A stretch of DNA of 38,960 bases, taken from positions 1 to 38,960 of the forward strand of contig JAJFGP010000045.1 in NCBI GenBank assembly GCA_021776055.1, written 5' to 3'. This stretch comes from Kiloniellaceae bacterium (GTDB taxonomy: Bacteria > Pseudomonadota > Alphaproteobacteria > Kiloniellales > J153). The notes below the pieces were generated by a model. That model did no database searches. It was not told the origin of the DNA and was given only the letters and a program-made list of their open reading frames with translations. Below are positions 18,192 through 30,362 of the stretch, one piece after another (within the stretch, counting starts at the first letter, position 1; each line of letters starts with the position of its first letter). The position numbers were made by a program, and so were the translations under genes.

Positions 18192-19079
18192 TCAATTCGG
18201 CCATGCCTGGATCTGGAACGCCGCCTTAAGCAAGTCGGTCTGCGGCACACCCAGCGGGTCGAACCATTTGGCGTAGATGGCATCGATCTCACCGGAACGG
18301 AACAAATCGGCAAGCACGGTATTCACCACCAGTCTGAAGTTCGAGTCGTCACGTCGCACGATCATGCCGTATGGGTCGTACGACAAGAATCGACCGACCA
18401 CTTCATAATTATCTGGCGATTCGGACTCCGCTGCCAAGCCATGCAACAGAATATGGTCGGTCGCAAAGGCATCGACGCGCCCGCTTTCCATCGCCTGGAA
18501 CCCTTCGGCGTGATCCTTCACCGGTAGAATTCTAAGGTCGAGATTCTGCCGCGCGGCAATTGCCTTGATGGCCCGCTCGTTTGTCGTACCTTGAGTCAGC
18601 GCGATGGACTTGCCGCCCATATCCTCGATTTCCTGAATGCCCGAGCCCTTTTTCACCAGCAGCTTCGTGCCGGTGATGAAGGTCGTATTGGCGAAATCGA
18701 CTTGTTGTTGCCGAGTCAGGTTGTTGGTGGTCGATCCGCATTCGATATCGACGGTGCCATTTGCAACCAAGAGGATTCGGGTTTTCGGATCGACCAGCAC
18801 GTAATCGACCTTGAGATCCGCCCGGCCAACCACATCCTTCACCTTCTCGACGATTCGCAGGCACAGATCGATCGAGTAGCCCATTGGTGGGCCACTATCT
18901 GTCAGGTACGAGAACGGAACGGACGATTCGCGATGGCCGATGACGATAGTTCCGGAGCGCTGAATCTTCAGCAATGTGCCGTGAAGTTCAGCCGCCGCTG
19001 CCGTTCCCGCACCGAAGAAAAAACTAAGCAGCACCAGGAACGCGCAAACTCGGTTTCTTGCCATGCCAACTTCCTTCAC
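18192..19079 (-). CDS. Amino-acid ABC transporter substrate-binding protein (family 3, GltI-like)
   Basis: Signal peptide; TLLKIQRSGTIVIGHRESSVPFSYLTDSGPPMGYSIDLCLRIVEKV...DIECGSTTNNLTRQQQVDFANTTFITGTKLLVKKGSG. Alternative start at 19064. Confidence 0.92.
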   Translation of the reverse strand: MKEVGMARNRVCAFLVLLSFFFGAGTAAAAELHGTLLKIQRSGTIVIGHRESSVPFSYLTDSGPPMGYSIDLCLRIVEKVKDVVGRADLKVDYVLVDPKTRILLVANGTVDIECGSTTNNLTRQQQVDFANTTFITGTKLLVKKGSGIQEIEDMGGKSIALTQGTTNERAIKAIAARQNLDLRILPVKDHAEGFQAMESGRVDAFATDHILLHGLAAESESPDNYEVVGRFLSYDPYGMIVRRDDSNFRLVVNTVLADLFRSGEIDAIYAKWFDPLGVPQTDLLKAAFQIQAWPN

Positions 19080-19291
19080 CTAATGGATCGGCGCACCCAC
19101 CCATTCTACGCCCGCACGCCTTGAGGTCATAGTCAGGATCCGTGATGAATGCTCACAAGGGCACCCTTCGCCACCTGTCGAATTCTGCCGTATTCAGGTC
19201 CAAACATATCATAATGTAACTATTTGTTCCCAGATTCATTGATTTTGCCTGGAGGGTCGGCTGTAGGGCCATGCGCTGATCGCCCGCCGGG

Positions 19292-27835: not shown

Positions 27836-27939
27836 TTTAACGCGGAGAATCAGGCCGCAGGAGGTTGTTGAGGCCGCGAAGCTCTCGCCGGTCCATCTCT
27901 GCAGATCGCAAAGAACTGGTGTGTTTTCTTTTTTCCGTT

Positions 27940-28482
27940 CTAGAAATCCTGAACACCAGCCTTTCTCGCTAAGAATTCCAGCAACCTCGCACTGGAGAGT
28001 CCGAACTCCTCAATAATTGGATCAGGTTTTACCTGATTGCCATCGTCTGCTGCATCCAAATAGCTATCCATGCCTTCCAATGAGGCCTGATACCGAGCAA
28101 CATACGGGTCGATCTCCCGTTGGTATATCAAAGAAAATTCCACCGATCTCCATTGAAGCTTTGAGATATCGGTCTTTATATTCAGAAATATCTCATTCTT
28201 TTTGTCGGCGTCTAATGTCTTTTCGTGTAACAAGTTAAATTTGGCAATCAGCTCTTTCGTATCATTGTTCAACGCATTAATTGTCGATGTGTAAAATGCT
28301 GATCTTCGAGCCTCTTGTTCAAATTTATTGTTCACAAGAGGCGCTACAACTATCGCAACGAAAACGGAAATAGAAATAAGAGTTACCTTGCCTAGCACAC
28401 TCCATCCGGCTGGAAATTCAGGTTTATTCCAATCAGTAAATGAAATTTTGATCGCTCTAAAATATTTGTTTGTCATTTTCAT
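27940..28482 (-). CDS. Hypothetical 180-aa protein, one N-terminal TM segment and coiled-coil-like region; second gene of AT-rich two-gene unit
   Basis: VLGKVTLISISVFVAIVVAPLVNN TM; start ATG overlaps upstream stop by 1 nt (TAATG on reverse strand); AT-richer than flanks. Confidence 0.75.
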   Translation of the reverse strand: MKMTNKYFRAIKISFTDWNKPEFPAGWSVLGKVTLISISVFVAIVVAPLVNNKFEQEARRSAFYTSTINALNNDTKELIAKFNLLHEKTLDADKKNEIFLNIKTDISKLQWRSVEFSLIYQREIDPYVARYQASLEGMDSYLDAADDGNQVKPDPIIEEFGLSSARLLEFLARKAGVQDF

Positions 28483-29627
28483 TATTCAGTTTCAGAAGAA
28501 GTTTTTGCACCCACTTGATCTTTGGCTTTTTTACCTTTATCGTTTGCTTCCTCCGAGGTGCTATTTGATACAGATTTTACTATAGTCTTTATGATATTCT
28601 TTAATTCTTCTTCGCTTCTCCGATCTTTGTATTCACTGCTGTTTTCTATCTGCATACCCTCCACATTTGCCTCATTGAATTTCCCGGAAACCAAGAGCGC
28701 CAAACCCACCGCAACAAATACGCCGAGGCTCCTTCGGCCAACCACTCTGTAAAACCCTGGAGAATGAAAAGATTGCTCAAAATCGACAACATCTTCCTCT
28801 GAATAATATTCTGATATTATCTGCGAGAATGACTTGTTCCTAATCTCACCAAGTTCTTCCCTATCATGAAGGCCATACAGAGCGATCAAGAATGCAATGA
28901 TTTGCTGAGTCTCAAGAGTTTCAAGTGGGTTTCGTCCCCGATAACCAGGGCATTCTATATCAGCACCACTAGCTTCCCGCGACATGAAGCTAAGGAAGAC
29001 ATGCGAGAATACTTCTACGCCAAACGCTTCTCGATGAACCGGTATGACTGCATGTGGATTTTCTAAGCGCCTTGAGAGTTCTGTACTCAAGTCGCGCTTT
29101 GCGAATGAAGGAGAGAGCCAGCGAACTTGCCTATATGGGAAGGGGTCTCTTGGGTAGCGATCTAATGTAATTGTCCCCCTAACGCTTCCTTGACTGCCCA
29201 ATATGCCAGCCAAAATTCTGTTGTATTGACCTCTTGGCGGAATTAGAACGATGTCTCCCTTTTGCATTTCAGTATAAAAGCGCTTTATATTAGTGACATC
29301 GCTAGACATATAGCGATCACTTCTCGCAATATTATAATCACCAGGGCGGCGACTCGGCTCATTTATTTCTTGTCTACTATAATATTTCTTAACTGCCTCC
29401 GACATCATCACGTGTTGCTTAATCAGGTTATCTGATGCAAGCATTCGATTGCTTGCTCGCAGTCCCGGATAATCAAGGAATATCCCTTCCCCAGCTTCGA
29501 TTTGAGAAAAGTACTTTTTGCCCTTTCCTGCGTGAAACGCCCAAATCTTTGCATTGTCTGGTAGAAGCGCCGCGTTGATATCGATTCTCATTTCTTGCAA
29601 TCCATTATCCGGTGCAAATTCACTCAT
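28482..29627 (-). CDS. Hypothetical 381-aa protein with PUA/EVE-like (Mrr N-terminal-like) region and C-terminal TM segment
   Basis: KIWAFHAGKGKKYFSQIEAGEGIFLDYPGL...FYTEMQKGDIVLIPPRGQYNRILAGILGSQGSV...PFPYRQVRWLSPSFAKRDLSTELSRRLENPHAVIPV follows the layout of Mrr-type N-terminal/EVE-like domains; SLGVFVAVGLALLVSG predicted TM; AT-rich composition. Confidence 0.72.
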   Translation of the reverse strand: MSEFAPDNGLQEMRIDINAALLPDNAKIWAFHAGKGKKYFSQIEAGEGIFLDYPGLRASNRMLASDNLIKQHVMMSEAVKKYYSRQEINEPSRRPGDYNIARSDRYMSSDVTNIKRFYTEMQKGDIVLIPPRGQYNRILAGILGSQGSVRGTITLDRYPRDPFPYRQVRWLSPSFAKRDLSTELSRRLENPHAVIPVHREAFGVEVFSHVFLSFMSREASGADIECPGYRGRNPLETLETQQIIAFLIALYGLHDREELGEIRNKSFSQIISEYYSEEDVVDFEQSFHSPGFYRVVGRRSLGVFVAVGLALLVSGKFNEANVEGMQIENSSEYKDRRSEEELKNIIKTIVKSVSNSTSEEANDKGKKAKDQVGAKTSSETE

Positions 29628-29738
29628 CGTGTAGTTAGAAAAATGCTATGAAATTAAATTCATGATATCTATACAAAGACCGCTCGGGCAAGCGGGGCTC
29701 ACACTGAAAATGAGTGGTCACGAGACAGCACATACTTG

Positions 29739-29783
29739 CCCCAGTAACAGGCATCTGAGCGGATGCGAGGACGGTAACTGGGG
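29739..29783. repeat. Nested inverted repeats (CCCCAGT...ACTGGGG enclosing GCATC...GATGC) upstream of the AT-rich two-gene unit
   Basis: CCCCAGT 29739-29745 pairs with ACTGGGG 29777-29783; inner GCATC 29751-29755 pairs with GATGC 29762-29766. Confidence 0.55.
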
Positions 29784-29858
29784 AAAGGAAACGGGGAAGA
29801 TATAGGGAACAGTATATAATTTCACATGCTGCCCACATTTAGTCGAGGCGGATGCGTC

Positions 29859-30362
29859 TCAGTTCCAACCCACGCAGTACGGCTCGGGCTTGAGGTCTTC
29901 CGGCTCGCCGGCTAGGCCCGGCGGCGGGAATTTTGCTTTGAATGTAAAGGCGCTCGCAGTCGATCCTTGCTCGTCCAGGAAGCGCAAGCGGTCCAGGCCA
30001 TCTTGCACGCTAGGTTGTGTGCCCGCCGGCACCCACCAGAGCACCTGATAGGCACCCTTCGGCGGCGCGAACCATTCCCGCCGCTGGCGTAAGACCAGGC
30101 GGTGCGCGGACTTATAGGCGAAGTCGAACAGGGCCTCCACGCTTTCCCAGACCGACATGTTGATAATAAGGCGTGGATCATCCGTCGCCTGGATGTCGGT
30201 GGCATTGCCTGATCCGGTTTGCAGCCGCCAGACGAAACCGGGGCTGCTGTCCGCCAGAGCGTTCACTTCGTCCAAGCGTTCGATGAACTCCGCAATGCGC
30301 GGGTCTTCGAGCGCGTAGAGCGCGGTCGCCACGTTCATTTGCGCAATTTGCCAGTCTCGCAC
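29859..30362 (-). CDS. DUF3291 domain-containing protein
   Basis: WQIAQMNVATALYALEDPRIAEFIERLDEVNALADSSPGFVWRLQTGSGNATDIQATDDPRLIINMSVWESVEALFDFAYKSAHRLVLRQRREWF matches DUF3291 layout. Confidence 0.9.
   Translation of the reverse strand: MRDWQIAQMNVATALYALEDPRIAEFIERLDEVNALADSSPGFVWRLQTGSGNATDIQATDDPRLIINMSVWESVEALFDFAYKSAHRLVLRQRREWFAPPKGAYQVLWWVPAGTQPSVQDGLDRLRFLDEQGSTASAFTFKAKFPPPGLAGEPEDLKPEPYCVGWN

Follow-up and report, generated by a model that had tools for sequence, protein, structure and literature searches.

An acquired AT-rich gene pair in a Kiloniellaceae bacterium encodes a candidate membrane-anchored nucleic-acid reader with a likely role in phage defence

A pair of overlapping AT-rich genes, here termed A and B, was found as an acquired island in the window, i.e., the whole stretch of 38,960 nucleotides of contig JAJFGP010000045.1 that was analysed (Table 1). 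We consider the pair to be a mobile and probably anti-phage module, in which A is a membrane-tethered nucleic-acid reader acting at the membrane, and assign this reading a probability of roughly 0.58. Defence of some form is likely, the specific membrane-effector mechanism being less certain. Family, fold, mobility and genomic slot of the pair are supported by the comparisons described below.

Table 1. Position of the gene pair, its parts and the surrounding island in the window.
Feature	Coordinates	Strand	Basis and remarks
Gene A, 381 aa	28482..29627	-	ORF; reader domain, middle domain, SPG motif, TM helix and charged tail
Reader domain of A (residues 27-201)	29025..29549	-	hhalign; PADLOC PDLC04806; Foldseek of relative L088
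Middle domain of A (residues 204-291), ending in the S-P-G motif (residues 289-291)	28755..29018	-	hhalign of the middle domain alone
Predicted TM helix of A (about residues 299-315)	28683..28733	-	hydropathy 1.88
C-terminal tail of A	28485..28682	-	alignment of seven homologues
Gene B, 180 aa	27940..28482	-	ORF; N-terminal TM helix and soluble region
Predicted TM helix of B (about residues 29-47)	28342..28398	-	hydropathy 2.43
Acquired AT-rich island	27846..29864	.	between M23 peptidase and DUF3291 genes; G+C content and breaks in the match to congener G004

Both reading frames of the original prediction were recovered exactly, with the one-base overlap of A and B lying in a TAATG sequence; B is probably made from the same transcript as A. 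The AT-richness was borne out by a G+C content of 0.434 in the island versus 0.627 in the rest of the window. The G+C and GC3 values were 0.434 and 0.39 for gene A and 0.401 and 0.43 for gene B, compared to 0.61-0.64 and 0.70-0.82 for the neighbouring genes. Apart from the island, the lowest 1.7-kb stretch of the window had a G+C content of 0.576, and a milder dip to 0.53-0.56 was seen at positions 18251-19250.

Pfam searches confirmed the predicted flanks, namely an M23 peptidase gene (PF01551, 4.5e-35) on one side and a DUF3291 gene (PF11695, 9e-55), followed by clpB, on the other. In the congener G004, only ~150 bp separate the M23 gene from the DUF3291 gene, versus ~2 kb in the window, with DNA homology between the two ending at position 27845 and restarting at 29865, and the A+B pair is absent from eight other genomes of the family. 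The island is therefore an insertion, in line with the horizontal acquisition that had been proposed; a vertically inherited host gene pair was ruled out by the empty site, the absence from the eight genomes and the GC3 contrast. A tRNA-borne island was rejected, as no tRNA was found. At the empty site of G004 (L024 2140-2293), a palindrome-like sequence of the GTCATCCCGGCC... type was noted between the two genes. In the more distant family member G005, the same gap is filled by ~4 kb of other genes (L025 1440-5480), which implies that this spot tolerates insertions.

Analysis of seven full-length A homologues, including the window copy, revealed the predicted TM helix at the same position in all of them, as judged by hydropathy, and the single TM segment of A, at about residues 295-315, and the N-terminal one of B that had been proposed were thus both recovered. 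In the adjacent SPG motif, S289 and G291 were invariant in 17/17 alignment rows, and conserved positions of the reader were W29, D125, G141, R166 and W170. A pair of cysteines 24-26 residues apart is present in the tail of six of the seven A proteins, the window copy being the one without it. This pair suggests a periplasmic disulfide; if right, the tail would lie outside and the reader on the cytoplasmic side. Searches of Pfam and NCBIfam returned no nuclease family for either A or B, in agreement with the original prediction, in which no nuclease motif was recognised. Profile searches including these databases also gave no match of A or B to the McrB GTPase/AAA domain that marks McrBC and CoCoNuT systems. 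PHROG family phrog_10226, which is without known function, matched three of the seven A proteins (best 7.8e-6). Weak matches to other PHROGs, DUF4939, SieB and ZorC/ZorA were judged to be chance or coiled-coil similarity.

In Mrr-type proteins, the N-domain ahead of the nuclease is thought to confer specificity. The PADLOC PDC-S02 model PDLC04806 matched the window copy of A at 4.5e-6, and PDC-S02 models matched 7/7 phage and plasmid relatives (best 4.5e-23), in each case over the N-terminal part only. The full PDC-S02 protein of G802 consists of this N-domain and an Mrr_cat nuclease. When the A family was compared by hhalign with a PDC-S02-type profile, built from seven reader + Mrr_cat proteins, 144 columns were aligned at an E-value of 4.6e-9, placing residues 27-201 of the window copy on the N-domain, while controls with shuffled or reversed profiles gave E-values of ~0.05 or worse. 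The C-terminal half of A did not align with the nuclease half (E 0.27), and the Mrr_cat half, a PD-(D/E)XK nuclease, is absent from A. We conclude from these profile comparisons that the N-terminal domain of A and the N-domain of Mrr-type PDC-S02 proteins are homologous; A as an Mrr nuclease was rejected, given that the catalytic half is missing. The Pfam EVE profile (PF01878) did not match A, which lies below Pfam detection, and direct sequence comparison of the reader with Pfam EVE was weak (best E 7e-4, P 27%). A similar reader-like segment was observed upstream of the ATPase in two McrB-like AAA proteins (L038 886-2850 and L042 577-2952).

AlphaFold2 modelling of the window copy of A with four sequences reached a pLDDT of 38, too low for a usable model. 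Due to this shallow alignment, the phage relative L088 was folded with 17 sequences, yielding an overall pLDDT of 71.6, with most of the reader at 80-95. In a Foldseek comparison of L088 with the PDB, YTH m6A-reader domains made up nearly all of the top 42 matches. Also among these were 1zce, an EVE-family protein, and the EVE-HNH endonuclease VcaM4I (PMC7897488). Individual E-values were 1.4e-3 and weaker and TM-scores 0.4-0.5, with the list as a whole being coherent. Judged from the model of this relative, the reader domain of A probably has a YTH/EVE-like fold of the PUA superfamily. Of the N-terminal region first described as EVE/PUA-like or Mrr-like, the Mrr-type N-domain was thus retrieved by hhalign and the YTH/EVE fold on the relative, while a match to the Pfam EVE profile was not obtained.

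Wherever a full-length A of the Alphaproteobacterial type was found, it is followed immediately by a B-type gene (7/7 loci). These are the window, a 6.3-kb Methylobacterium plasmid, a Rhodospirillales MAG, G350 (beside a transposase-like gene), Lichenibacterium minor, a Thioclava plasmid and an IMG/VR viral contig; all six homologues share the layout of the window copy of A. On the Thioclava plasmid, the pair is found a few kb from CD-NTase-like and SAVED genes, and on the viral contig A adjoins Rz-like and holin-like genes (gene names assigned by eye). The low G+C content of the pair was seen again in two other chromosomes. Taken together, the empty site, the plasmids, the viral contig and this recurring composition indicate that the pair is mobile. 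The points that the original prediction had singled out beforehand as decisive gave a PUA/EVE-like fold (checked on relative L088), recurring co-occurrence of the two genes and a distribution at odds with vertical conservation.

The Thioclava segment (plasmid p5, L014 19135-43633), in which the pair is accompanied by CD-NTase-like, SAVED, SNF2 and toxin/immunity genes, is a possible defence island. In the host chromosome, A and B stand alone amid housekeeping genes, with no defence island, and the window copy lies outside any recognised prophage. The proposed defence-island location may apply to relatives, with their plasmid, phage and CD-NTase-like/SAVED contexts, but does not apply to the window pair itself. 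In G159, a 193-aa stand-alone reader (L017 7257-7838) overlaps the start of an 823-aa gene and lies beside a phage structural-type gene; as the reader part occurs there alone, the domain appears modular.

Neither tblastn of the Alphaproteobacterial A proteins against phages nor viral scans by a single protein or by A1, which was too diverse for a genome scan, returned matches. The phage link emerged only via a scan with sequences of the PDC-S02 nuclease family, which brought in the viral protein L041, where the reader is combined with an NSPG motif and a TM segment. Using L041 in tblastn, relatives were found in Streptococcus phages, both temperate and satellite, in a Fusobacterium phage and on a Bacillus mycoides plasmid. 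Alignment of the A family with the Firmicutes phage group by hhalign extended over 251 columns (E 1.3e-13), beginning in the reader and including the TM segment, and the middle domain alone gave an E-value of 1.2e-6 between the Alphaproteobacterial and Firmicutes groups, with shuffled or reversed controls at 0.5 or above. By this measure, the phage proteins and A are the same family through the TM segment.

In 7/7 annotated phages, an integrase gene lies downstream, adjoining the A-like gene or one small gene away, and a regulator gene lies upstream in most of the seven. An integrase downstream of the A-like gene was also seen in 23/24 viral contigs, many of which are near-identical and not independent. 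Tha is a defence gene described from the cI-int lysogeny module of prophages (PMC11087260). The integrase-adjacent position of the phage relatives suggests a little-described phage-defence gene with a reader and without a nuclease. However, a gene located in the cI-int slot may instead be a regulator or unrelated cargo, which counts against the defence reading. One such role would be to regulate the mobile element itself or to tether its nucleic acid, e.g., by keeping its DNA or RNA at the membrane, without any part in defence. Besides the adjoining integrase and nearby repressor, an EVE/YTH-like domain able to bind host nucleic acid would suit this role, but the window copy is inserted by itself in the chromosome, with neither integrase nor repressor in the window, further copies are on plasmids, and the patchy, rare occurrence of the family (4/395 genomes of the class) resembles that of accessory defence genes. 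We regard this explanation as improbable.

The proximity to integrase genes in temperate and satellite phages, together with the predicted membrane anchoring, would also suit a superinfection-exclusion device that senses a phage protein or blocks injection, its reader having lost nucleic-acid binding to serve as a protein-interaction platform; the conserved tryptophan, aspartate, glycine and arginine positions named above could be structural and not ligand-binding. Speaking for nucleic-acid reading, this domain also occurs in fusion with nucleases, where PUA-superfamily domains are modification sensors (PMC7641849, PMC7897488), and the device is considered unlikely, if less so than a regulator or tether.

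Partner B is poorly conserved, with a predicted N-terminal TM helix in 7/7 B-type proteins as judged by hydropathy. Its match to SieB (PF14163) was weak and non-significant (E 0.1), under the curated cut-off, and no antitoxin family was matched in profile searches including Pfam and NCBIfam. No B partner was seen in the Streptococcus and Fusobacterium phage versions of A, and B therefore seems to have been added in one lineage rather than to be the universal effector. The idea of a reader-plus-membrane-effector pair holds in part: reader homology, TM segments, pairing and acquisition sustain it, and the absence of B from the phage versions speaks against it. That absence also bears on a toxin-antitoxin-like or addiction pair stabilising mobile elements, in which membrane damage by one protein would be restrained by the other. 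The gene overlap, the membrane location predicted for both products and a small plasmid carrying little besides the pair are compatible with such an arrangement, which is nevertheless very improbable, as A occurs alone in phages, B matched no antitoxin family in the profile searches and the large reader domain would be superfluous for a toxin.

In the preferred reading of an anti-phage module, A would join its reader to the middle domain, SPG motif and single TM helix in place of a nuclease, with B as a small, N-anchored membrane partner. Located at the inner membrane, A would sample DNA or RNA as it arrives from a phage, with a modified base on the foreign nucleic acid as a plausible ligand. 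Binding may be relayed to the TM region by way of the middle domain and SPG motif, upon which A, together with B in Gram-negatives, would block entry or damage the membrane, resulting in superinfection exclusion or abortive infection. Of this scheme, the activity in defence, the nature of the ligand and the effector mechanism are our inference. More tentatively, and with somewhat less than even chances, A may represent an undescribed but widespread class of modified-base readers anchored in the membrane and carried by temperate and satellite phages, plasmids and islands in Firmicutes, Fusobacteria and Alphaproteobacteria, which directly sense foreign nucleic acid and trigger a membrane effector without a nuclease or second messenger. 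The homologues in temperate phages of culturable hosts make the idea directly testable.

In defence, EVE/PUA-like readers are known in the role of nuclease specificity domains. Coupling such a reader to a TM helix would turn recognition of nucleic acid directly into an alarm at the membrane; no described case was found, and the word 'transmembrane' is absent from the EVE/DCD survey (PMC7641849). The membrane-anchored layout as a whole matched no Pfam, NCBIfam or PADLOC system, and no paper on it was found in a literature search that covered few subscription journals. The reader as N-domain of Mrr-type proteins is already known, and Kosinski et al. 2005 (PMC1189080) briefly mentioned its nuclease-free occurrence, describing some members of COG4127, which would correspond to PDC-S02, as consisting of the N-domain only or of the N-domain and an unrelated second domain. 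Added here are the likely YTH/EVE-like fold and a nuclease-free context for the reader.

Compared to known systems, B resembles SieB (PF14163) in being a small membrane protein, homology being unconfirmed at a match of E 0.1. Tha (PMC11087260) and the phage homologues of A are alike in lying near repressor and integrase genes, a likeness of position alone, and differ in that Tha is HEPN-based. With EVE-HNH modification-dependent endonucleases such as VcaM4I (PMC7897488) and with EVE/YTH proteins, A shares the reader fold as seen in relative L088, whereas, unlike these endonucleases, it is without a nuclease, predicted to be membrane-anchored and below Pfam EVE detection. Among the closest are the PDC-S02 reader + Mrr_cat nucleases of type IV restriction, whose N-terminal domain of ~145 residues is homologous over its whole length; in A, the Mrr_cat nuclease is replaced by the middle domain, SPG motif, TM helix and tail, and in Alphaproteobacteria the system comprises two genes.
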